From: Heliophilum fasciatum
GTDB lineage: Bacteria > Bacillota > Desulfitobacteriia > Heliobacteriales > Heliobacteriaceae
Reading direction: 5' to 3'
Assembly (NCBI RefSeq): GCF_004341395.1
Contig: NZ_SLXT01000003.1
Location: 1 to 64,000 of the forward strand
DNA length: 64,000 nt
The first letter of the stretch is position 1, and every line of letters begins with the position of its first letter. Shown one piece after another: positions 6,293 to 23,591 of this stretch. The notes beneath the pieces were generated by a model. That model was not told the origin of the DNA. It made no database searches and saw only the letters and a list, made by a program, of their open reading frames with translations. The position numbers were made by a program, and so were the translations under genes.

Positions 6293-7612
6293 ATGGAACC
6301 GATCAAGTCGATCAAAGTTGCCACCCAAAGCCCCTGTCCCGCCTTCGGCGGCCTGCGCGTGCTAACCCGCCTCGAAGGCTTTTTACCGGTACTGCTTGGC
6401 AACCACGGTTGCTATTACGGCCTGAACTTTCTGGCCCACTTTTATGCCGCCCGCAAATCGATCTACGCTCCCCTGCTGAATTCCATCGATTTTACCGACA
6501 AAAACCTCCAACATAACTTGATGGCGGCCTTGAAACAGCTCATCGAAGAAGAAAAACCGGAATTCGTTCCCGTCATCAACCTTTGCGTCGCCACCACCGT
6601 CGGTATCGACGTCGACGAAATGGCTCGCCAGATGCCCGAGATCATTCCGCTGCGTATCACCGGTTTCGGCACCCGCAGTCACGCCGAAGCCAAAGACGTC
6701 ACCCTGGAAGGCATCTTCAAAAAACTCAAGCAAAACGGTGATCACAAGCTGCGGGAGCCGAAAAGCATCGCCTCCATCGGCGAAGTGTTCCCTTCCGACT
6801 CCATCGCCATTGAACATCTCGCCGAAAAACTCGGCCTCAAATATCGCGCCCACGTACCCAGCAAAGACATCAACGATTTCCGCAAAGCCCTCAACGTCTC
6901 AACCATGGCTTGCCTCCATCCCTTCTACACCCGCTCCATGCGTCAATTCGAAGAAGTGGGCATCAACCACGTCACCAGCGCCCCCGTCGGCGCCGAAGGC
7001 ACCTACAACTGGATCAAAGCGCTCGCCGAAAAAACCGACGTCGATGCCCAGCTGGCCGAAAAAGTCGCCCGGGAAGAACGGGATGCCGTGCAAAAGATCC
7101 TCGACGGTCCTCTCAATCTCAAAGGCGTCAAAATCGTCGTGGCCGGGTATGAAGGCTTTGAATTCTCTATCGCCCGCCTCCTGATCGAAGCCGGAGCTAA
7201 GGTGACCTATGTGTCCACGTCCATCGGCAAATCGCCCCTTTGCGAGCCTGATATCACCTGGCTGAAAGAGCACGGTGTCCAAGAGATCAAATTCCGCAAA
7301 TCGGCCGCTGACGATTTTGTGGCGATTAAAAAGCATCAACCGGACGTATCGCTGGCTGCTACCGACGTCGCCGGTATGGGCAAAGAGTTGGGCATGGTTT
7401 CGGTGTATTTCACCAACCTGATCGCCTCCCGCCCCATGTACCTCGCCCATGGCGCGGAAAACGTGCTGGAACTGATGCACCGTTTGATCGCAACCCGTCC
7501 GGCCGTCCATAACATCCGTTCCTTCTTCCAAGATTTTGATATGCCTCGTTCCCTGCCCGTCGCTGAAGTGGACGAGCACCTTTGCGCCTGTTGCCCGGGC
7601 GCCAAAGGCTAA
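6293..7612 (+). CDS. bchY: Chlorophyllide reductase subunit BchY
   Basis: BchY and BchZ form the catalytic NifDK-like component of chlorophyllide reductase. In heliobacteria this enzyme is known to form the 8-ethylidene group of bacteriochlorophyll g. The 439-residue protein has NifD-type cluster-ligand segments: SPCPAFGG (Cys at about residue 14), GNHGCYYG (about 43) and NLCVATTVGID (about 101). The later Rossmann domain starts near VKIVVAGYEGFEF. The ATG follows AAAGGAGATA. It is the first gene of a plus-strand operon with bchZ 37 nt downstream. It is shorter than many proteobacterial BchY proteins. Confidence 0.93.
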   Translation: MEPIKSIKVATQSPCPAFGGLRVLTRLEGFLPVLLGNHGCYYGLNFLAHFYAARKSIYAPLLNSIDFTDKNLQHNLMAALKQLIEEEKPEFVPVINLCVATTVGIDVDEMARQMPEIIPLRITGFGTRSHAEAKDVTLEGIFKKLKQNGDHKLREPKSIASIGEVFPSDSIAIEHLAEKLGLKYRAHVPSKDINDFRKALNVSTMACLHPFYTRSMRQFEEVGINHVTSAPVGAEGTYNWIKALAEKTDVDAQLAEKVAREERDAVQKILDGPLNLKGVKIVVAGYEGFEFSIARLLIEAGAKVTYVSTSIGKSPLCEPDITWLKEHGVQEIKFRKSAADDFVAIKKHQPDVSLAATDVAGMGKELGMVSVYFTNLIASRPMYLAHGAENVLELMHRLIATRPAVHNIRSFFQDFDMPRSLPVAEVDEHLCACCPGAKG

Positions 7613-7649
7613 CCATAAGCGAACACCGATAAAGGAGATTAGTCCGACC

Positions 7650-9158
7650 ATGCAAATGATGCGCGATGTCGATATGGCCAATGGCTACTGGGGCGCGTTG
7701 GCCGTCCTCGCCCCCATGAAAGGCAACCACTGTATCATCATCGACGGCCCCATCGGCTGTCACTACGTGCCGGTAGACTCGGCCCTTAACTATACCGACT
7801 CCATCCCGTACTTACAAAATGTCCATGCTACCCACATCATCGAAAGCGACGTGGCCCTCGACGGCACGCTCCATAAGCTGCAAAAGCTCTGCGGCGAACT
7901 GATCGACCGTTACGATCAACTGTTTATCCTGTCCTGCCAGGAAAGCGAGATCATCTCCAGCGAAGCGTCCATGCTCGAAGCCGAAATCAACGGCAAGCGG
8001 ATCTGGTACATGGCTACCCGCTCCCTGGACACCGACGACTATACGGCCCGTGACGAAGTGCTGCACTACCTCTATCAAAAAGTGCGCCCCACCTTCCCGG
8101 CGCAGCCCAAAAAAGCAACCGACAAGCCGCTGGTCAACATCATCGGCCCCACCTTTGGCAACTTCAATTCCTATGCCGACTTTGCCGAAATCAAACGGCT
8201 GATCACCGGCATCGGCGCCGAAGTCAACGTGGCTTTTCCTTTTGACTGCCACATCGGCGACATGGTCCGTCTCGACGACGCCGACGCCAACGTCCTCATG
8301 TACCAGGAATACGGCCAAAAACTGGCCAACGCCATGGGCAAACCGGCTTTTCAAGCGCCCATCGGTCTCCGCGCCACTGAAAAATTCCTGCTCGAACTGA
8401 GCCAAGCCCTCGGCCTGGAAGAGTCCGCCCGCGCTTTTATCGCGCAGGAAAAAGCCACAACCTTGCAAGGCTTCTGGGATGTCTGGCGCTCGCCCCACCA
8501 AGACATTTTCCGCACCAGTTCCTTTGGCGTCTATGCCCATAAAACCTACGCCGAAGGCCTGACCGCATTTTTCAAAGATGAACTCGGCTTTACGTGCGAC
8601 ATGAGCGGCGTCAAAACCGACCGCTGGCGCACCAAAAACGCCATGGATATCAAAGCCTCCCTCTTGGAAACACCGCCGACGCTCTTTTTCGGCTGTATCA
8701 ACGAAAAGATCTACATCACTGAAAACAGTCTTTCCACCCGCTTTATCCCCTGCGCCCATCCCATGCCGATCGTCTGCCGTTCCACCGGCACACCGTACAT
8801 GGGCTTTGCCGGCGCCGTGTACCTTATCCAAATCGTCAGCAATGAACTGTTTGACATCCTCTACAGCCACATCCACATTGAGTACAGCAGTGACAAAGCG
8901 AAACGCCGCAGCGAGCGCGACAAAGCCCGCGTCGAATGGGAACAACAGTTGTTGGGCCAAGCCGTCGCCCGCGAAGTGCGTTGGAGCGATGAAGCGCTTA
9001 AGCACATGGACGTGGTGCTGAAAAAGATCCCCTTCTTCGTCCGCGTCAGCGCCTCCAAAATGCTCAAAGTGGAAAGCGAAAAACTGGTTAAAGAACAGTA
9101 CCGCGACACCGTTACCCCCGACGACATCGACGTGATCTTTGCGCGCTTTAAGCGCTAA
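7650..9158 (+). CDS. bchZ: Chlorophyllide reductase subunit BchZ
   Basis: This 502-residue protein is the NifK-like partner of BchY. N-terminal motifs are GPIGCHYVPVDS (about residue 30-42) and the conserved SCQESEIIS segment (about 92-100). The last 55 residues (from WSDEALKHMD) match the PCP_red domain that ends BchZ and BchB proteins. The ATG at 7650 is chosen over upstream in-frame codons because AAAGGAGATT lies 9-16 nt before it. The gene is followed 17 nt later by the first of two small membrane-protein genes. Confidence 0.93.
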   Translation: MQMMRDVDMANGYWGALAVLAPMKGNHCIIIDGPIGCHYVPVDSALNYTDSIPYLQNVHATHIIESDVALDGTLHKLQKLCGELIDRYDQLFILSCQESEIISSEASMLEAEINGKRIWYMATRSLDTDDYTARDEVLHYLYQKVRPTFPAQPKKATDKPLVNIIGPTFGNFNSYADFAEIKRLITGIGAEVNVAFPFDCHIGDMVRLDDADANVLMYQEYGQKLANAMGKPAFQAPIGLRATEKFLLELSQALGLEESARAFIAQEKATTLQGFWDVWRSPHQDIFRTSSFGVYAHKTYAEGLTAFFKDELGFTCDMSGVKTDRWRTKNAMDIKASLLETPPTLFFGCINEKIYITENSLSTRFIPCAHPMPIVCRSTGTPYMGFAGAVYLIQIVSNELFDILYSHIHIEYSSDKAKRRSERDKARVEWEQQLLGQAVAREVRWSDEALKHMDVVLKKIPFFVRVSASKMLKVESEKLVKEQYRDTVTPDDIDVIFARFKR

Positions 9159-9175
9159 CGGCAGGAGTGAAGCCT

Positions 9176-9511
9176 GTGCTAGGACTACTTTCCCTTCCCA
9201 CCTGGATCGTCCATATCGGCAGTATCGTGGAATGGGGCTTGGCCATGGTTTTGTTCTACCGTGTGGGCCAAAAGCTGAACAACCGCATGCTCATGCTTAT
9301 GCCCTGGGCCATGGTGCCCTACTTGATTAGCGGCTTTTTTGCCATCTGGTATCACCTCACCTTAGACACGCTGCAATGGTTGAGTGATGCCCAAAGCTAC
9401 CTGACGCTGATGGGCAGCTGCGCCTTTGGCATCTGGGCCTTCTTCTTGATTCGCTCCCTGCCTGCTACCGGTGTCAACGAAGCGAAAGGGGGCACCCAAA
9501 CCCATGTCTAG
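9176..9511 (+). CDS. DUF2499 (Ycf49-like) membrane protein
   Basis: A 111-residue membrane protein with three predicted hydrophobic helices (about residues 5-27, 38-60 and 74-95). The opening SLPTWIVHIGSIVEWGLAM closely matches the signature of DUF2499, also called Ycf49-like. This family is conserved in cyanobacteria and plastid-bearing eukaryotes and has no function I know of. Start GTG 9176 is preferred because GCAGGAG lies 8 nt upstream; GTG 9167 overlaps that site. The gene overlaps the next by 8 nt and lies between bchZ and bchX, so it is very likely co-expressed with chlorophyllide reductase. Confidence 0.8.
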   Translation: MLGLLSLPTWIVHIGSIVEWGLAMVLFYRVGQKLNNRMLMLMPWAMVPYLISGFFAIWYHLTLDTLQWLSDAQSYLTLMGSCAFGIWAFFLIRSLPATGVNEAKGGTQTHV

Positions 9512-9812
9512 TCTTTCAGAAGCCTTGATGACCCTTTCGATTTTTCCGTATATCTACTTTCTTTATGTCATGCATAAAGTACGAAAGACCCACCCGGAAG
9601 TGATCAACTTCACCACCTACCGTGGCTTTCATGCCTTGATTGGCTTTATCTTTTTTACGGCCGGCACCGGATTCTACGCCACTCAAGTGCTCGGCGCACC
9701 GACCTTGGGCAAAGTGGACTGGCTTCACGGCATCTCCGAAGCAGGACTGACGATCACCAACGGCCTTGTCTTGCTCGGCTTAAAGCGGCAGTTAAGCGAA
9801 TTAGGCAAGTAA
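9504..9812 (+). CDS. DUF3593-like membrane protein
   Basis: A 102-residue protein with about three membrane helices. The segment VDWLHGISEAGLTITNGLVL (about residue 70-89) matches the best-conserved part of DUF3593, another cyanobacterial/plant family without a known role. The N-terminal ALMTLSIFPYIYFLY also fits. The ATG at 9504 lies inside the 3' end of the DUF2499 gene (stop 9509-9511), an 8-nt overlap that suggests translational coupling and a two-subunit complex. DUF2499 and DUF3593 are both typical of oxygenic phototrophs. Confidence 0.75.
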   Translation: MSSLSEALMTLSIFPYIYFLYVMHKVRKTHPEVINFTTYRGFHALIGFIFFTAGTGFYATQVLGAPTLGKVDWLHGISEAGLTITNGLVLLGLKRQLSELGK

Positions 9813-9901
9813 CTTTATCGCCGAGCCAAGGCCTGGTTCCTCGTTCCTAAAATAACCAATCCCATCGGGTCGCCGATGATTAACGTACAGGAGTTGTTGG
9901 A

Positions 9902-10759
9902 ATGTCTGAAAAGAACTTCTATGCCGTCTATGGCAAAGGCGGCAGCGGCAAAAGCTTTGTGATCTCGAACCTCTCAAACAGTGCTGCCCGGATGAACAAA
10001 CGAGTCCTGCAAATCGGCTGTGACCCGAAACACGACTCGACAGTCATTCTGTTTAACGGCGTCAACCTGCCTACCATGCTTGATTACTGGGCGCAACTGC
10101 AAGCAGAATCGGATGATGTCGATCCGGCACCGCGTGTGGAAGATATCATCTTCAAAAGCCGCGGCGTCCACGCGCTGGAAATCGGCGGTCCCGAAGTGGC
10201 CATCGGTTGCGGCGGCCGAGGGATTTCCCTGGGCTTTGAGATTCTGGAACGCATGGGGCTCTACAAATGGCGCTTTGATTATGTTTTTCTCGACTTCCTC
10301 GGCGACGTCGTTTGCGGCGGCTTTGGTGTGCCGATCAGCAAATCGATCGCCAAGTCGATCATCTTGGTGGCCGGCAACGATCACCAGTCGCTCTACGTAG
10401 CCAACAATATCTGTACGGCCGTTTCCTCTTTTGCCAAGCTGGGCGGCAAATCGCGAATCATGGGCATGATCATCAACAAAGACGATGGCACCGGCTATGC
10501 CGAGCAGTTCTGCGAGCGCGTCGGTATCAATGTCTTGGCCCGAATCCCCAACAATCCCGAAGTAGCCAAATTGAACGCTGCTTTTGAATTGATCAGCGAT
10601 CAAGCCCCCTACGATAAACTCTTCCAAGATATCGTTGCCCGGCTGCCCCAAGAAGACGGTGTGCTGCCGAAACCGATGGATTTTGAAGCCTTTTCGCGGA
10701 TTTACCGTGAGGTACCCAAAGTCACGTTGGAACGGGTTACGGAAGCGGAACTTTATTAA
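9902..10759 (+). CDS. bchX: Chlorophyllide reductase iron protein BchX
   Basis: This 285-residue NifH-like ATPase is the electron donor to BchYZ. The P-loop is YGKGGSGKSF (residues 9-18), and the switch I-like segment is QIGCDPKHDST. The two Cys that bridge the dimer's 4Fe-4S cluster lie in AIGCGGRGI and DVVCGGFGV. These features separate it from the BchL encoded at 59572, which has [15 protein letters not shown] precedes the ATG by 8 nt. It is the last gene of the bchYZ operon and a terminator follows 66 nt later. The gap 9813-9901 shows no clear promoter. Confidence 0.92.
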   Translation: MSEKNFYAVYGKGGSGKSFVISNLSNSAARMNKRVLQIGCDPKHDSTVILFNGVNLPTMLDYWAQLQAESDDVDPAPRVEDIIFKSRGVHALEIGGPEVAIGCGGRGISLGFEILERMGLYKWRFDYVFLDFLGDVVCGGFGVPISKSIAKSIILVAGNDHQSLYVANNICTAVSSFAKLGGKSRIMGMIINKDDGTGYAEQFCERVGINVLARIPNNPEVAKLNAAFELISDQAPYDKLFQDIVARLPQEDGVLPKPMDFEAFSRIYREVPKVTLERVTEAELY

Positions 10760-13769: not shown

Positions 13770-15008
13770 CTACATAGCCGGGCAGTTCCCGCAAGAACTA
13801 CAGGAATAGCGCATCGTAGATGACTGCCGCTGCACTTCCCGGGTCACCACCCAAAAGAGGCACGTTTCTTCAGAAGGCAAAAAATGATTCCCCGTCTGCT
13901 CCGCATTGACGGCGTAGCAGCCGCCGTAGCATTTTCGGGTGCACCGTCGGCAGTGCGCAGGCATCGACTGGGCCGTATCTTGCAACGGTTCCAACCGTCC
14001 ATAATCAATCGAAGTATGAACATTGCCGACCTTCCACCGCTTGGTTTCGTCCGCCAGGCCCAGCAATTTCGAACAGGGATATAGGTCCCCGTTCGGGGCA
14101 ACCGCCAGCGATGCGATGCCGGCGTGACAGCCCCAGCGTTCATCAGGCCCGGACTCTTTTTCAAAATCATCGATGTAAATCGGATAGCCTAGCTGCTTAA
14201 GGCGATGATATTCTTCCATGATGGCCAACAGATTGCGCCCATACACTTCAATTTCCTTCAATGACCAGAGCGCTGCACCCTGGGCCGGCGCAATGATCAC
14301 CTGATTGATCCCTAAATCAACGATCTGCCGAAAATCATCAACCATTTGCTCGATGGCAGCAGGGCTGACGGTCATGCGCGCCACCACCCATGAGCGATAC
14401 TGTTGAATCAGCGGGATCAACGCGGCAAGCCGATGCCAAGTACCGGCACCGCTTTTCGTCCGGCGGTAGCGGTCATGCGTTTCCGGTCCCCCGTCGATGC
14501 TCAACATCATATTCATGCGGTGGTCAGCAAAATATTGGAGGATTTCTTCCGTCAGCAACGTTCCGTTCGTCGTTATCCCCCAGTTGATCTGAATATGGCG
14601 CGCTCGTGCCGCTTCTTCCGCATAGGGAATGATTTGCTTAATCAAAGGAAATGCGAGCAGCGGTTCCCCACCGATCAAGGTGATCGTGACCTGGGGATAG
14701 GCGGCATGGTCCATTAAGAGAACGATCGCTTGGGTAGCCGTCGCAAGGCTCATCCGTTCTTGGGGGTCTTTGTTGTGAACAAAACAGTAGTCACAGGCAA
14801 GGTTGCAGTTGAAGGTCAAATTTAATTCCATCGCGGCCATGGGGAGGCGCACTGAAACGCCGGCCGGTTCGGCTACGCCGGAAACTTCGTCGGCTCGGTG
14901 CGCCTTAGCAGCAACTTCTGCCGATGGGCACGGTTCCGTCATTACGAAAGTTTCAGCCAATGCCTCAGATTCTTCCGGTGTGAGGCGGAGAAGCGTTTGA
15001 TCGTCCAT
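13770..15008 (-). CDS. Radical SAM/SPASM enzyme, probable peptide or protein maturase
   Basis: A 412-residue radical SAM enzyme. The 4Fe-4S/SAM motif is CNLACDYC (Cys 68, 72, 75), followed by LIGGEPLL and SIDGGPETH. The C-terminal SPASM region has GCHAGIASL, DLYPCSK, and a CRRCTRKCYGGC cluster with a further Cys in EETCLFW, enough for two auxiliary clusters. An extra Cys-rich tail (CSSCGNCPAM) ends the protein. SPASM enzymes of this form usually modify peptides, including thioether cross-linking. It starts 6 nt after the stop of the Cys/Pro repeat protein and has no recognisable ribosome-binding site of its own, so translation is probably coupled. That repeat protein is therefore its likely substrate. 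Confidence 0.85.
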   Translation of the reverse strand: MDDQTLLRLTPEESEALAETFVMTEPCPSAEVAAKAHRADEVSGVAEPAGVSVRLPMAAMELNLTFNCNLACDYCFVHNKDPQERMSLATATQAIVLLMDHAAYPQVTITLIGGEPLLAFPLIKQIIPYAEEAARARHIQINWGITTNGTLLTEEILQYFADHRMNMMLSIDGGPETHDRYRRTKSGAGTWHRLAALIPLIQQYRSWVVARMTVSPAAIEQMVDDFRQIVDLGINQVIIAPAQGAALWSLKEIEVYGRNLLAIMEEYHRLKQLGYPIYIDDFEKESGPDERWGCHAGIASLAVAPNGDLYPCSKLLGLADETKRWKVGNVHTSIDYGRLEPLQDTAQSMPAHCRRCTRKCYGGCYAVNAEQTGNHFLPSEETCLFWVVTREVQRQSSTMRYSCSSCGNCPAM

Positions 15009-15014
15009 GATTAG

Positions 15015-15698
15015 TTAAGGCACAAATCGTGGGCGACAGGGTGGTGGGCCAAATCGTTCACGGCACGGTGGCGGTGGGCTAAAGCGTTCGCGGCACGGTG
15101 GCGGCGGGGCAAAACGCTCACGGCACGGCGGCGGCGGCGGGCCAAATCGTTCGCGGCACGGTGGCGGCGGGCCAAAACGCTCACGACAGGGTGGCGGCGG
15201 GCCAAATCGTTCACGGCACGGTGGCGGCGGTGGACCAAAACGCTCACGACAGGGTGGCGGTCCGAATTGGTACTGCGGGCAACCATAAGGTGGGCCGTAC
15301 TGGTACTGTGGGCAGCCATAGGGCGGGCCGTACTGGTATTGCGGGCAGCCATAGGGCGGACCATATTGATACTGCGGACACCCGTAGGGGCTATACACAA
15401 ACTGCGGGCATAAATACGGCGGCAAGCCGGGGCGTTGCAAACTCTCATAATCCTGATCGTCACCGCTATTGCCCTGCATCTGAGCCGCCATGTACTCCAT
15501 GTGCTCTTTGCTCATCACACAGTTGGCATGACCACAAATGGTGGCCACATCACTGTAAGCAACAACGCGCTTGCCTTCCCCCGTTTCCAGGCTAAACACG
15601 TTATCGTCAACCTCAACAATTTGGCCAGCCAGCTTCTGCCCATCGATGAGATCCAGCGATACGTTTTGATGCAAGTATGTCTTTACTTGTTCAAACAA
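15015..15698 (-). CDS. Cys/Pro-repeat coat-like protein, candidate substrate of the radical SAM enzyme
   Basis: A 227-residue protein in two parts. Residues 1-60 (FEQVKTYLHQNVSLDLIDG onward) look like the small beta-barrel domain of DUF2642/spore-coat-type proteins. Residues 103-146 are four 11-residue repeats of the form PPYGCPQYQYG, and 147-227 are eight repeats of the form PPPPCRERFG. There are 15 Cys in all, one per repeat. I chose TTG 15698 because AAGGGGAG lies 7 nt upstream. The longer open frame to 15857 runs through a terminator hairpin of the upstream gene. It is followed directly by the radical SAM gene. A spore-coat role is inferred from context. Confidence 0.75.
   Translation of the reverse strand: MFEQVKTYLHQNVSLDLIDGQKLAGQIVEVDDNVFSLETGEGKRVVAYSDVATICGHANCVMSKEHMEYMAAQMQGNSGDDQDYESLQRPGLPPYLCPQFVYSPYGCPQYQYGPPYGCPQYQYGPPYGCPQYQYGPPYGCPQYQFGPPPCRERFGPPPPPCRERFGPPPPCRERFGPPPPCRERFGPPPPPCRERFAPPPPCRERFSPPPPCRERFGPPPCRPRFVP
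15018..15392 (-). repeat. Coding tandem repeats: 4 x 33 bp and 8 x 27-33 bp
   Basis: The 3' half of the Cys/Pro protein gene is made of in-frame tandem repeats: block A (15261-15392, unit coding YGCPQYQYGPP) and block B (15018-15260, unit coding CRERFGPPPP with 3-5 Pro). Copies vary mainly in Pro number and third codon positions, as expected from slippage or unequal crossing-over under protein-level selection. Confidence 0.9.
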
Positions 15699-15732
15699 AA
15701 CTGATCTCCCCTTCGGTTTTCTATCCGCTCGC

Positions 15733-15759
15733 AATGTATGTACGTCCTTCGCTCTTGGT
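15733..15759 (-). promoter_or_regulatory. Candidate mother-cell (sigma-K or sigma-E) promoter
   Basis: On the minus strand CATACATT (15733-15740) matches the -10 shared by sigma-E (CATACAnT) and sigma-K (CATAnnnT). An AC pair 17 bp upstream (15758-15759) fits sigma-K spacing. It lies about 35 bp before the TTG start of the Cys/Pro repeat protein and after the terminator of the upstream gene, where a promoter is needed. The motif is short, so chance is possible. Confidence 0.4.
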
Positions 15760-15782
15760 GCTTGCCCATGCCTGTTTGTCCA

Positions 15783-15856: not shown

Positions 15857-16138
15857 TTAACGGTTGTTGCCAATGACGCCATCTTCTTTATCGAGGGACG
15901 CCTTCATGGTCTCGGTAAATTGCCCCTTCCGCTCTTCCATCGCCGATGTCGGCATATTCCATGCATCATTATCATCGTAATCGTCATCGCCTTTACGAAT
16001 CTGCGCCGCCAGATCATACCAGCCTTTTTGAAGCTCCCAAGGAATCACTGTGTCGCTCAGCGCTCCGTCAATGGTTGACTCCAGCGCTTCCCCCTCGCTT
16101 CCTGCTGCAATCACGGGCCGCTGCCTTTTGTCTTTCAT
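15857..16138 (-). CDS. Small acidic protein of the coat-like island, unknown function
   Basis: A 93-residue soluble protein with an acidic DDDYDDNDAW stretch near the middle. The ATG at 16138 follows a perfect AGGAGGTGATC site; an upstream in-frame GTG lies inside that site. I do not recognise a family. It sits between coat-like genes and ends in its own strong terminator, so it is probably a single-gene unit, perhaps expressed in sporulation. Confidence 0.65.
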   Translation of the reverse strand: MKDKRQRPVIAAGSEGEALESTIDGALSDTVIPWELQKGWYDLAAQIRKGDDDYDDNDAWNMPTSAMEERKGQFTETMKASLDKEDGVIGNNR

Positions 16139-16471
16139 CGTGATCACCTCCTGACGCTAGCATGCCCCATGGGTTTCTCCCTGATGATCAAGCACGCCGG
16201 CATCCGTTGCTCTTCACCGCATGAAGCTGAAAACATTGGCAACACCCATGCGCATAACCCGATCGCGATCATTGAAAACTATTACTGATGCGTTAGTGCC
16301 CGGAAAAATATTTTGGCTTATCCCAACCGCAAGCACCGAATTTTCAGCAGATCGATCAAGGCCAACAAAAGCATTGCTCGATCTGCTGATTCCTCGATCT
16401 GCCGATTCAATGATGCGACCGGCGACGGTTCGCCAACAGCCGAATTCGTTCATGAAGGAAGGAGGTGAAAA
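16139..16471. other. Intergenic region between divergent coat-like genes
   Basis: No gene can be supported here. Two overlapping open frames exist on opposite strands (16221-16475 plus, 16214-16453 minus), but neither has a ribosome-binding site or a recognisable family. A 16-bp tandem repeat occurs: TCGATCTGCTGATTCC (16378-16393) then TCGATCTGCCGATTCA (16394-16409). The region must hold promoters for both flanking genes. Confidence 0.5.
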
Positions 16472-16699: not shown

Positions 16700-16987
16700 A
16701 TGGGCATCATCGATGAATTGATGGGAAATACTCCGAAAGTTACGGATTTTGATATTGCCAATCAATTGCTGACCGATTCCAAGATGGGCATTACGATGTT
16801 GGCCAAAACGCTGACGGAAGTGTCCAATCCGGAACTGCGCATGCTCTTGAGCCGGCACCTGGAAATGGGCCTGCAAGAGCATTTTCAACTGTCCGATATT
16901 GCGACCAATAAAAAATGGTATCAGCCCTACTTGAGCCCCGTGGACCAACTGCGCACCGATTTCCGGATCTCGCAGGAGTTGACCTGA
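16700..16987 (+). CDS. Coat F domain protein
   Basis: A 95-residue protein of the spore Coat F family: a helical core (DFDIANQLLTDSKMGITMLA, about residue 17-36) and the HLEMGLQEHFQLSDIATNKKWY segment that mimics the family's helical ferritin-like pattern, ending in a Tyr/Pro-rich tail. GGGAGGTG lies before the ATG. It is likely in one transcript with the gene at 16472 and ends before a terminator at 17093. Confidence 0.7.
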   Translation: MGIIDELMGNTPKVTDFDIANQLLTDSKMGITMLAKTLTEVSNPELRMLLSRHLEMGLQEHFQLSDIATNKKWYQPYLSPVDQLRTDFRISQELT

Positions 16988-18995: not shown

Positions 18996-21194
18996 TTAAT
19001 GCACATTCCCCGACGGTAAGCCCAAGGCTTGCCGTTTCGCTTCAATTTCATCGAGATAAATCTGCACAGTTTTTTCCGCATCCAGTTCGACGACCACTTT
19101 ACCGAGGCCCAGCGTGGCCGTCGTTTCCGTTAAGGTTTTAACCACCACTTCACTACCGGTGATCGATGGTACCGGTGCCACATGAACCATCCATCCTAAC
19201 GCCACCGCCGTGCAGGCGTCGGCAACAGCTTTTTGCTCCAGATATTCAGGCGCACCGATGACCAGCGGCAGCTGGTTCGTATCGACGTTCATCTCATCAG
19301 CGATTTCCTTGGCCGTCAGCGTCATCTTACCGATGTCCACACAAGCGCCGAAGTTCAGCACCGGTGGGATGCCCAAGGATTCGCAGACCTTGCGTAGCCC
19401 CGAACCGGCATACGCGGCGGCGGCCGGATCGGTCAGGCCCGTGTACTGCATGACCGACGACGTACAGCCGCCGGAGAGCACAAGCACATTGTTTTTGATC
19501 AAACCTTCAGTGATTTTATAAATGTTGCTGCCACCCTGACCGTAGCGGGCAGTGGTGCAACCGACGATAGTGGCGATGCCGCGAATATTCCCCTGAGCGA
19601 TTTGATCGATAAGCGGACGGAAGGAACCGCCGAGGGCAGCCCGCACCGATTCGGTAGAAAAGCCGACCATACACTTTTCGCTAACATACGGCGGAATGAA
19701 TACCTCACGGTTTTCCGCTTTGCGTTTTTGAAACGATGCAATCGCCATGTCCAGCGCTTTTTCCGCTTGTTCGCGCATCGCTTCCGGACGGAATTCCAAC
19801 ACTTCCGTCCCGGGCATGCGGATTACCGGATCGACGGAAACCATCGTGGTGCCGTAGCGCCGGGCATAGAGCGGTAAGGTCGGCACCGTGCAGTTGTAAT
19901 CAAAGGTCCAAAGATCGACAGCGCCAGTCGCGAAGAGGTATTCTTCTGAAAGCCATTCACCCTCTTGACCGGCATAGGCAGTTTGATTGTGCACACCGCT
20001 GTAGTTGATCAACTGCTGGCCTTCACAGACGTGACCGAGCACTTGCAAACCTGCGGCACCGGCTTCACGGGCTTTGTTTTGCCATTTTTCTTCCGAAGCG
20101 ACTTCAATCAACACGTGTGCCAGGTGCGGCATATGACCGTTGGTGATGATGTTGACTTTGTCTTTCGCTAGGAGGCCCATGTTTTGCTTTTTCATCACCG
20201 GCTGTTGGGTGCCCATGAGGATCTCCTGGATGATATTGAGCAGCAACAAGCCCTGATATTCGTTGGCGATGCCGAGGCGAACAGCCTTTAAAAGGAAGTA
20301 CACCGGATCGGCGTTTAAATTAGTCATGCACATGGTTTGCGCCATGGCCACTTCGGCGTTGGCGCCACCGGGGAAAAGATCGAGCTTTTTCCATAATTCT
20401 TTGCGCTTTGTCGGGGCAAAAGCTTCGGTGGTTTGCGATGGCTCGTAGTGGGGACGGCAGATGTCAGCGATAACCCAGTTGGCGAAGTCGATGGCGAGGG
20501 CGTTCGTATCTTTATGGGTATCGAGGCCCGCTAAGGATGCCCAGTGGCGGAGCTTTTCCGGTTCGCGGATTTTGAGGCCCGATTCCGGATGCTCGGCTGC
20601 GGCTTTTAAGGTACGGGCCACTTGGTGACAATGATACACATTGGCAGCCGTACCGATGGTGACATGACGGTACATAAAGTTACGGGCCACCATCACATCG
20701 GCGTCCACACCGCAGACACCCCGTTGCACTTTATCAGATATCCGGCAAGGGCCGTTGGCACAAAGCTGACAGGAGAGCCCTTCCACACAGAACTTACAGC
20801 GAATTTTCTCCTGTTCGGTGAAACGATCAAAGACGTTGCTGAGACCTTGGTCGTGGACCGATTTGTACATGACGCGCATGGCCGGATCAAGAATGACATT
20901 CAGCGGGTACCCGGCTTTATCTTGATCGTGCTTTCCGGCGACATGCTCGCGCTGCCATTCATGGACAGCGTGGGCCGGCGGAGCTACTGTTTCGTCAATC
21001 ATAAAACGTGGTACTTGATCGTGCTGGTCATGATGGTGGGCCGGATCATTCGTCGACGACGATGTGTGGGTAACCGGTGTTTTGCCGCTTGGCATCATCG
21101 GATCGGTAGCATGCCGTAGATCCTGGGCCGAGTAACTGCCGGTAGGGGTTGCTTTTCCCTGTTCTTGGTTAGGACCTTGGTTATTGCCCGTCAT
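18996..21194 (-). CDS. cooS: Stand-alone anaerobic Ni-CO dehydrogenase catalytic subunit, with His-rich N-terminal extension
   Basis: Ni-CODHs interconvert CO and CO2. B-cluster Cys are present (Cys 142, 145, 150, 161, in SCQLCANGPCRI and GVCG). The D-cluster motif is Cys133-x-x-Cys136, the short form linked to a 2Fe-2S D-cluster in Desulfovibrio vulgaris CODH. C-cluster candidates are all kept: NGHMPHL (His), HVCEGQQ, DYNCTVP, VGCTTAR, SGGCTSS and ACVDIGK. The first 95 residues are an extra, His-rich segment (HHHDQHD at 53-59). No cooC, cooF or acetyl-CoA synthase gene is adjacent. ATG 21194 is chosen with AGGAG 10-14 nt upstream; GTG 21200 is an alternative. Confidence 0.85.
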   Translation of the reverse strand: MTGNNQGPNQEQGKATPTGSYSAQDLRHATDPMMPSGKTPVTHTSSSTNDPAHHHDQHDQVPRFMIDETVAPPAHAVHEWQREHVAGKHDQDKAGYPLNVILDPAMRVMYKSVHDQGLSNVFDRFTEQEKIRCKFCVEGLSCQLCANGPCRISDKVQRGVCGVDADVMVARNFMYRHVTIGTAANVYHCHQVARTLKAAAEHPESGLKIREPEKLRHWASLAGLDTHKDTNALAIDFANWVIADICRPHYEPSQTTEAFAPTKRKELWKKLDLFPGGANAEVAMAQTMCMTNLNADPVYFLLKAVRLGIANEYQGLLLLNIIQEILMGTQQPVMKKQNMGLLAKDKVNIITNGHMPHLAHVLIEVASEEKWQNKAREAGAAGLQVLGHVCEGQQLINYSGVHNQTAYAGQEGEWLSEEYLFATGAVDLWTFDYNCTVPTLPLYARRYGTTMVSVDPVIRMPGTEVLEFRPEAMREQAEKALDMAIASFQKRKAENREVFIPPYVSEKCMVGFSTESVRAALGGSFRPLIDQIAQGNIRGIATIVGCTTARYGQGGSNIYKITEGLIKNNVLVLSGGCTSSVMQYTGLTDPAAAAYAGSGLRKVCESLGIPPVLNFGACVDIGKMTLTAKEIADEMNVDTNQLPLVIGAPEYLEQKAVADACTAVALGWMVHVAPVPSITGSEVVVKTLTETTATLGLGKVVVELDAEKTVQIYLDEIEAKRQALGLPSGNVH

Positions 21195-21356
21195 TATCAC
21201 AGCGCTCCTTTTTTGTGCTTTCTAAAATTGCGGGAGGCGCTTCTTTATCGGTAACCACGTTACGCCTAGTGTTAAAATTCCCCTACACCGGTCATGGTAA
21301 TCGACAATATTTTGGTAAGTTATTGTATTTTCTTAGACCAACAATCCTACAAACAC

Positions 21357-21584: not shown

Positions 21585-23591
21585 CTATGGAGCGATCTCC
21601 GGCGCTCTCGCTGCCGTTGTCCCCGGAAGCGCAGCACCAACAGGTACCGATCTATTCATCAAAGCTCTTTGATCCGAAGCGCTTTGTTTTGGTTGTTCCG
21701 CAGAACGTCCACCGCCGGGAAGTACTTGCTCATGGCTTGAGCCCGCACTTAACTTGTTCCATGCCGTCGGATCACTGGCAGGAAGATTTTCACGAGCCGG
21801 TGGCGGTGGTGGTGGCGCTGCCGCTTCCACGGCAGCCGTATCCGTATAGGAATGGCGAAGACGCAGTTCGGCCCGATCAGACGTCTTGGTTTGCGCAGCG
21901 TCGCGAACAGTAGCGGTCCCCGCAGAAGCGCTTGGTGCTGAACTAGCCAAGGGCAAAGGGGTGCCGTTGCTTATCGCACGGTTAGTTACGCCGGTTTTCA
22001 TGCCCGTTGCGGCCACCGGTTTCTGCGGTTTGCCACCGTGATTGGTTGGATTGCCGACAGCCGTTGCTGTTTTCTTTTGACTACTTACGCTACGGGTTTT
22101 CCCAGCAGGGCTGCGCACCGACTCGACGGAAGCCGCTTTATTTTCGCTACGGGCCGTTGTCACGGCAGCGACGGACGAACGACTGGTAGCGCCCGGTGCC
22201 TCTGTCCACTGGGCATAAAGCATCGTATCGCCGACACCCACCCGCATCTCTTCATCGGCCCGATAGGACGTTCCGGTGCCATCCATGTTTGTGTTCCACC
22301 CGGCAAATCGGTAGCCCTCTTTTTCCAGATCGCCGCTGTTGCCACGGACAACCACATCAGTACCGGGCTCGTACCGTCGATCGTCCCAGGGCACACTGCC
22401 GCCGGTATGGCCGTTGCCATGATAGATCACTTTATAACTTCGATAGTCCGATGCAAACTTGATCACGGCATTGGCATCACCAGGGATCATCCAGACATTC
22501 CGTCCATCAAAGACGCCGCCATAAAAGGCCATGCTGGTTTGTTTATAACCGCTGGGCCATTGTTCGTGACGCTTCATAATCCCGGTGTCTTTGTCAATCT
22601 GGATCACACTGTCGGCATTAAGCGGAATCATCCAGATGCTTTCCCCGTCATAAACGCCGCCCATAAACGAACTGATTTCCTTGTCAAATCCGTCGGGCCA
22701 GCCCTTGTAACCAATCATGGCACCGCTGTTGATATCAATTTTAACGACTTGATTGGCCCGACAGGGAATCATCCAGATATACTGACCGTCAAAAACACCA
22801 CCGGAAAAGGCAATCGTCCCTGGCGTTAATCCGCTCGGCCAACGGTTATACCCGGTCATCGTCCCACTGTCTTTATCAATCTTGACGACCATATTGGCAT
22901 TGGCCGGAATCATCCAAATATGTTGTCCGTCAAAAGCCCCACCAATAAAGCCATACTCGCCTTTTTCAAACCCGGCGGGCCACGCACTGTATCCGGTCAT
23001 GATACCGGTATCTTTATCGATTTTCACCACCTGATCGGTACCATAAGGGATCATCCAGATCGATTGCCCGTCAAAAACGCCCCCGGCAAAGGCACCGACA
23101 TCTTTGGTGAATCCGGCGGGCCAATTGTTGAATCCAGTCATCACGCCGCTGTCTTTGTCAATGTTGATCACCTGATCGGCATTGGCCGGAATCATCCAGA
23201 TATGCTGTCCGTCAAAAACCCCGCCGATAAAGGCCGTCAACCCCTTGGTAAACCCGGCCGGCCACTGGCGATATCCCGTCATCTCCCCGCTGATGCGATC
23301 CATTTTAACGACCTGATCGGCATCATTGGGAATCATCCAGATCGCTTGCCCATCATAGACGCCACCGGAAAAATCCCGTGTACGTTTCACAAATCCACGG
23401 GGCCAATCCTTAAAGCTGAGCATGGTTACATCAGCGCCTTCAGTCGTTACCGGCTTTTTACTACCGCCGAAGGTAATATGGAATCCATCCGTCACTGCCA
23501 CTGCCGGTACAGGGATCACATTAACAAGCATAGCCAAAGCGGCCACGATCGCAATCGCCAACGCGATGAGACTTACCCGTAGTTTGCCCAT
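21585..23591 (-). CDS. Secreted seven-bladed beta-propeller protein with InlB-type repeat domain
   Basis: A 668-residue exported protein. Residues 1-32 form a signal peptide (MGKLRVSLIALAIAIVAAL, ending near PAVA). Residues about 55-385 contain seven repeats of 47-49 residues with the core GGVFDGQ-IWMIP-ADQVVKIDKDTG-MTGY-WPAGF, which should close as one seven-bladed propeller. Residues about 390-465 match the Listeria-Bacteroides (InlB B) repeat: YKVIYHGNGH to GWNTNMDGTG to LYAQWTE. The last 200 residues are Ala/Ser/Pro-rich and probably disordered. No cell-wall anchor motif is seen. AGGAGGTG precedes the ATG. It stands alone; ligand unknown. Confidence 0.8.
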   Translation of the reverse strand: MGKLRVSLIALAIAIVAALAMLVNVIPVPAVAVTDGFHITFGGSKKPVTTEGADVTMLSFKDWPRGFVKRTRDFSGGVYDGQAIWMIPNDADQVVKMDRISGEMTGYRQWPAGFTKGLTAFIGGVFDGQHIWMIPANADQVINIDKDSGVMTGFNNWPAGFTKDVGAFAGGVFDGQSIWMIPYGTDQVVKIDKDTGIMTGYSAWPAGFEKGEYGFIGGAFDGQHIWMIPANANMVVKIDKDSGTMTGYNRWPSGLTPGTIAFSGGVFDGQYIWMIPCRANQVVKIDINSGAMIGYKGWPDGFDKEISSFMGGVYDGESIWMIPLNADSVIQIDKDTGIMKRHEQWPSGYKQTSMAFYGGVFDGRNVWMIPGDANAVIKFASDYRSYKVIYHGNGHTGGSVPWDDRRYEPGTDVVVRGNSGDLEKEGYRFAGWNTNMDGTGTSYRADEEMRVGVGDTMLYAQWTEAPGATSRSSVAAVTTARSENKAASVESVRSPAGKTRSVSSQKKTATAVGNPTNHGGKPQKPVAATGMKTGVTNRAISNGTPLPLASSAPSASAGTATVRDAAQTKTSDRAELRLRHSYTDTAAVEAAAPPPPPPARENLPASDPTAWNKLSAGSSHEQVLPGGGRSAEQPKQSASDQRALMNRSVPVGAALPGTTAARAPEIAP

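Follow-up and report, generated by a model that had tools for sequence, protein, structure and literature searches.

Here, we describe a two-gene system from Heliophilum fasciatum that we read as a sporulation system, in which a radical SAM/SPASM enzyme installs thioether links in the repeat Cys of a structural coat or exosporium protein encoded directly before it, a reading to which we assign a probability of roughly 0.6. The pair lies in the window, the 64,000-nucleotide stretch of contig NZ_SLXT01000003.1 that was analysed, and its features are collected in Table 1. The known targets of SPASM maturases are small peptides, a few redox enzymes and sulfatases, and no description of a radical-SAM-modified spore structural protein was found in the open-licence papers searched. 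Cys-rich coat proteins and SPASM maturases are already known as such, and the chemistry probably falls into a known type; the new element is the two together under a sigma-K-type promoter. If the reading is true, SPASM chemistry would be extended to materials, through the cross-linking of a structural spore protein, and the question of how anaerobes harden a Cys-rich coat in the absence of oxygen-dependent disulfides would have a concrete answer. Further, paralogous substrates with very different repeats would let the acceptor rule be read off.

The original prediction had pointed to a possible modified spore-coat system from the window alone. In this regard, the pairing of the genes, their co-occurrence and a sigma-K-type promoter speak for it, whereas its details on a Glu acceptor two residues after Cys, a functional Cys-rich tail of the enzyme and a DUF2642-like N-terminus of the repeat protein had to be given up.

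Table 1 Positions of the gene pair, its parts and a sporulation-linked neighbour in the window.
Feature	Position	Strand	Basis
Radical SAM/SPASM enzyme, 412 aa	13770..15008	-	Pfam Radical_SAM; NCBIfam PapB best, below cut-off; 51-61% identical orthologues
Extra C-terminal Cys tail CSSCGNC	13779..13799	-	Orthologue alignment: not conserved
SPASM auxiliary-cluster Cys set C294-C383, seven Cys	13860..14129	-	Invariant in alignment
CX3CX2C motif for SAM-binding [4Fe-4S] cluster, residues 68-75	14784..14807	-	Invariant in alignment
Repeat protein, 227 aa, proposed substrate	15015..15698	-	TTG start; ORF and family alignment
Block B: seven CRERF[G/A/S]PPP(P)(P) units and final CRPRFVP	15018..15251	-	Sequence; Tandem Repeats Finder
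Block A: four YGCPQYQ[Y/F]GPP units	15255..15386	-	Sequence; Tandem Repeats Finder
N-terminal Sm/Hfq-like beta-barrel domain, family-defining	15474..15698	-	Alignment; AlphaFold2 model; Foldseek match to Hfq
Ribosome-binding site AAGGGGAG of repeat gene	15706..15713	-	Sequence
Predicted sigma-K-type promoter GCACC-N15-ACATACATTG	15732..15761	-	Consensus KCACM/GCATANNNTA quoted in PMC3416734
Coat_F domain protein	16700-16987	+	Pfam E 1.8e-15; sporulation-linked neighbour

Gene pair and repeat protein

The layout first described was confirmed in the sequence throughout: on the minus strand, the gene of the 227-aa repeat protein is followed after 6 nt (CTAATC) by that of the 412-aa enzyme, whose ATG has no Shine-Dalgarno sequence in the window. 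The repeat gene itself opens with TTG behind a good ribosome-binding site, and translational coupling of the enzyme to it is plausible here. In the relatives, the two genes overlap or nearly overlap, and for most of them a ribosome-binding site of the enzyme lies within the final codons of the preceding repeat gene (AAGGAATAG).

The repeat protein consists, in this order, of an N-terminal domain of ~75 residues, a degenerate unit (LCPQFVYSP), block A and block B, and both repeat arrays were recovered independently with Tandem Repeats Finder. An earlier count of 12 Cys units holds for the four of block A and the eight of block B (seven CRERF, one CRPRF), but leaves out the degenerate unit, which is a 13th. 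The CxERFG core of block B recurs in a relative (L031). Unit-to-unit differences amount to 0.93 per synonymous and 0.03 per nonsynonymous site in block A, and to 0.60 and 0.05 in block B, the nonsynonymous values being biased downwards (a lower bound) because the units were picked by motif. With synonymous values of 0.6-0.9 against nonsynonymous values of 0.03-0.05, the units are old and kept by selection, not recent copies.

For the N-terminal domain, a likeness to DUF2642 had been proposed; Pfam gives no DUF2642 match and returns weak matches to LSM, DUF6897 and RimP-C instead. The AlphaFold2 model of the domain, confident over residues 1-55, comprises a helix and five strands and matches Hfq subunits in Foldseek. 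Rings of the Sm type would point to a role of the domain in assembly or in recognition by the enzyme.

Enzyme family and cluster motifs

The window enzyme lies above the Pfam cut-off of PF04055 (Radical_SAM) and just below that of SPASM, which is exceeded by the enzymes of three other loci (L029, L039, L059). When 14 orthologues were aligned, C68, C72 and C75 of CNLACDYC (CX3CX2C) proved invariant, as did all seven SPASM Cys (C294, C312, C353, C356, C360, C364 and C383), a number that corresponds to two auxiliary clusters, and the full SPASM Cys sets claimed at the outset are thus present. The additional Cys-rich tail noted with them is real, but it is specific to the window protein; since the orthologues do without it, a part in the enzyme machinery is not supported and a functional role was rejected. 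The N-terminal 50 residues have also diverged in the window enzyme, and a conserved, helical-looking segment occupies this part of the other orthologues.

The window enzyme reaches the cut-off of no curated maturase family in NCBIfam. Its top family is PapB (NF047865, 210.2 bits against a cut-off of 340), followed by PeaB (TIGR03906, 174 against 453), the Nif11-peptide maturase and the SCIFF maturase (TIGR03974, 145 against 425). The 14 orthologues agree in the families that they match, with the best E-value for PapB (1.2e-66), and from these shared matches below the cut-offs it appears that the enzymes form a clade without a curated NCBIfam family of its own. The nearest solved structure, by sequence as well as by fold, is that of the SCIFF maturase CteB (PDB 5wgg, 5why), the enzyme model behind the fold comparison being of moderate confidence (pLDDT 66, and less than 50 over much of the SPASM part).

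Distribution of the pair

Orthologues of the enzyme (51-61% identical) were found in about 22 species, counted after removal of duplicates between genome collections, and belong to Pelotomaculum, Desulforamulus, Peptococcaceae MAGs, Sporomusa and Heliophilum. Neither the other eight genomes of the order nor the rest of the 83 genomes of the class yielded an orthologue; the top matches there (about 30% identity, ~500-aa frames) look like SCIFF-type maturases and were set aside. The wider phylum sample contributed four orthologues with 55-60% identity, and the order to which one of these belongs contributed twelve more genomes with an orthologue. Additionally, an alignment-based scan of genome contigs recovered relatives that a single-sequence scan did not return, adding Pelotomaculum propionicicum, P. 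terephthalicicum, Desulforamulus aeronauticus, D. aquiferis, Sporomusa malonica (Negativicutes) and several MAGs; D. aeronauticus, both of these Pelotomaculum species and S. malonica are cultured spore formers. A tblastn search of plasmids gave only distant enzymes such as PeaB, NlpM and the like.

In every orthologue locus, across about 22 species, a repeat-family protein is encoded directly upstream of the enzyme, the repeat frame of D. aquiferis being broken in the draft assembly. The partner in S. malonica (L060:5383-5826 (+)) is minimal, with 148 aa, 6 Cys after the domain and no repeats; repeats are therefore not required, and this protein could offer the simplest substrate for biochemical work. 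A comparison of 17 loci, taken with flanks of up to 6 kb, showed only the enzyme and repeat genes in common, with the next commonest gene in 6/17 and no conserved third gene; in this comparison, one locus (L064) stood outside the second group only through the overlap filter, and its partner is present.

The same association was seen at the level of whole genomes. In the phylum sample (399 genomes), the N-terminal domain occurred in 5/5 enzyme-positive genomes and in 0/394 others, three enzyme matches near 1e-44 (36% identity, frames of about 485 aa) not being counted as orthologues, and in the order sample (100 genomes) it occurred in 14/14 and 0/86, respectively, counts that are not independent events because the genomes are related. 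Two weak extra domain matches in the order sample were rejected, one of them being RimP (L082) and the other (L081) yielding no family member. Enzyme-positive genomes, and only these, often carry unlinked paralogues of the repeat protein as well (L083-L091, L103-L105), which have no adjoining enzyme gene and almost without exception retain the Cys-aromatic pattern. The partner upstream in about 22 species and the exact co-occurrence in both surveys support the earlier view of the pair as one system. Wide occurrence of the repeat protein without the enzyme had been named as evidence that would count against this view; this was checked and did not refute it, as no domain-bearing genome lacked the enzyme in either survey.

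Sigma-K-type promoters

The sporulation link, originally suggested from the coat-like N-terminus of the repeat protein and nearby coat-like genes, is strengthened by sigma-K-type promoters, in the window and beyond. The pattern [AC]AC-N17-CATAnnnT is found 41-51 nt before the start of the repeat gene in 15/16 upstream regions, with variants in one locus that has 1 bp less (N16) and in another with T in first place, and the same type of motif precedes the pair of S. malonica and several unlinked paralogues. This motif agrees with the consensus for sigma-K, KCACM / GCATANNNTA (as given in PMC3416734), in the form KCACM-N15-nCATAnnnT, of the late mother-cell type, with the 15-bp spacing that is optimal for sigma-K in B. 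subtilis (PMC517825). The strict pattern has about 20 further matches in the 491 kb of strand that make up the window and related loci; as the motif keeps its position and spacing in divergent genomes, chance is an unlikely source of the matches before the repeat genes, which are predictions by consensus. Sigma-K-dependent transcription of the pair is predicted on this ground. The host genome encodes sigma-K (TIGR02846, 347.7 bits against a cut-off of 298.65), and between the pair and the gene upstream of it lies an inverted repeat with a T-run, in line with a promoter of its own for the pair.

Residues around the repeat Cys and proposed chemistry

Residue statistics cover 26 proteins with 432 Cys, with 500 shuffles as the null. 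An aromatic residue stands at +4 from 208/432 Cys (null mean 78, maximum 102) and at +5 from 153/432 (null 75), so that 344/432 (80%) have one at +4 or +5 and about 20% have none there. The window protein has an aromatic at +4 for 8 of its 13 repeat Cys, the remaining 5 being followed by aromatics at +3 and +5. By comparison, Asp or Glu anywhere within +1 to +6 accompanies only 69/432 Cys, and the Glu two residues after Cys that had been put forward as acceptor is common only in the window protein and the Peptococcaceae MAG branch; on conservation, it was rejected as a general acceptor. The best-kept residue is Cys itself, across repeats as different as CxxxY in L091 and CFERFG in L031. Family proteins reach 336 aa, and the paralogues range from L105, with the repeats PCYERF and PCLEMF, to L088, with only 2 Cys. 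In the L091 paralogue (L091:1498-1743 (-) and the following frame), CxxxY recurs every 6-8 residues in an extreme background rich in His, Asn and Arg, where the residues retained are chiefly Cys and the +4 aromatic.

Our best model is a PapB/CteB-like enzyme that forms redox-stable thioethers in a large structural coat protein. Late in sporulation, sigma-K would transcribe both genes in the mother cell. The repeat protein, presumably the substrate of the enzyme, would be a structural coat or exosporium protein made of an Sm/Hfq-like domain and a long arm of Cys, aromatic residues and Pro, the domain serving assembly, enzyme recognition or both. By means of the 5'-deoxyadenosyl radical and with its auxiliary clusters, the enzyme would bond the sulfurs of the repeat Cys to nearby carbons, most likely within one unit and at or near the aromatic 4-5 positions downstream of the Cys. 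A stiff arm rich in Pro and aromatics would result, with links that form independently of oxygen and resist reduction, and ring-like N-terminal domains may tile such arms into a coat or exosporium layer. Being oxygen-independent and non-reducible, thioethers would suit strict anaerobes, where disulfides would be unreliable. The gene pairing, the exact co-occurrence, the Cys-aromatic pattern, the sigma-K-type promoter and the intact catalytic and auxiliary cluster Cys are seen in the sequences and strongly imply the substrate; that the enzyme modifies the repeat protein, the bond type, the acceptor residue and the coat location of the repeat protein are what we infer.

A more far-reaching version, in which Cys-to-aromatic (C-x3-F/Y) thioethers serve as the irreversible, oxygen-independent counterpart of disulfides across the whole paralogous family of coat proteins in these strict anaerobes, is tentative and, in our judgement, somewhat doubtful. 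Subtilosin-type Cys-Phe thioethers are a precedent for such bonds. The thioethers that PapB forms link Cys to Asp/Glu in six CX3D/E motifs, and the enzyme accepts spacings of 0-6 (PMC9413430); it is therefore conceivable that the +4 geometry is used here with another acceptor.

Among known systems, that of PapA and PapB (a ranthipeptide) is closest in giving the best E-value for all 14 orthologues and in a dominant +4 spacing. Apart from the low score of the window enzyme, it differs in that the acids of CX3D/E are mostly missing from the repeat proteins, and in that the system described here has a large structural substrate with an Sm-like domain, a sigma-K-type promoter and no shared export genes. 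CteB is thioether-forming, but SCIFF is a small peptide, and the Heliophilum genome appears, from a 512-aa frame with 31% identity (L018), to have a separate SCIFF-type enzyme. PeaB, the quinohemoprotein amine dehydrogenase maturase and second-best family of the window enzyme, is a SPASM enzyme whose Cys cross-links lie within a functional protein, although its target and context are unrelated. The SPASM maturases CefB (Cys-every-fifth) and those of CXXX repeats (NF038107, TIGR04115) have family names that point to Cys-repeat targets, but the window enzyme is below their cut-offs and the NCBIfam targets do not match the repeat protein; we know of no sporulation link for them.

Alternative explanations

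The +4/+5 aromatic is the most conserved neighbour of the Cys, and several SPASM enzymes make cyclophanes, with YhhB and GrrM scoring weakly here, which would fit an enzyme that modifies the repeats without Cys thioethers, through C-C or other links at aromatics (cyclophane-like) or through epimerisation, the Cys then serving in disulfides or metal binding. We regard this as unlikely, given that the nearest families by score and structure (PapB, PeaB, SCIFF/CteB) form thioethers and that conservation across the very different repeats of L091 and L031 is best for the Cys. The gene layout also resembles that of a precursor with a SPASM maturase, and large leader domains exist (Nif11/NHLP type); the N-terminal domain could accordingly be the leader of a RiPP natural product whose repeats are excised and secreted as peptides. 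This is the least probable of the explanations considered, as no protease or transporter is common to the 17 loci, the promoter is of sigma-K type, and the family includes proteins of up to 336 aa and unlinked paralogues without an adjoining enzyme.

The repeat protein might instead be an ordinary Cys-rich coat protein, linked by disulfides or binding metal, with the enzyme acting on another target. Self-assembling Cys-rich coat or exosporium proteins, namely CotY/ExsY, CdeC and CsxA, are known (PMC4950064, PMC8546674, PMC7677010, PMC7333573) and are like the repeat protein in being structural proteins of spore layers. They differ from it in that no sequence homology of the repeat protein to known coat proteins was found and in that the papers found report no radical SAM partner for them. 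The strict pairing and exact co-occurrence of the enzyme and the repeat family, and genes that overlap or nearly do so, make this explanation improbable.

Other genes in the window

A coat-like gene near the pair, as claimed originally, is present in the form of the Coat_F domain protein (Table 1). The gene upstream of the pair, beyond the inverted repeat and T-run, encodes a 96-aa acidic protein with no Pfam or NCBIfam match (15857-16147 (-)). Further away, 18996-21200 (-) holds a Prismane/CO-dehydrogenase (CooS-like) gene, and 21585-23591 (-) encodes a secreted-looking protein of 668 aa in which several repeats of ~45 residues (GGVFDGQxIWMIP) occur together with a Listeria-Bacteroides repeat domain and a tail rich in Pro, Ser and Ala. 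On the other side, 6293-10759 (+) contains three nitrogenase-like genes (two Oxidored_nitro, one Fer4_NifH/frxC), one of which has a weak proto-chlorophyllide-reductase C-terminal match, and these are consistent with heliobacterial bacteriochlorophyll synthesis genes.
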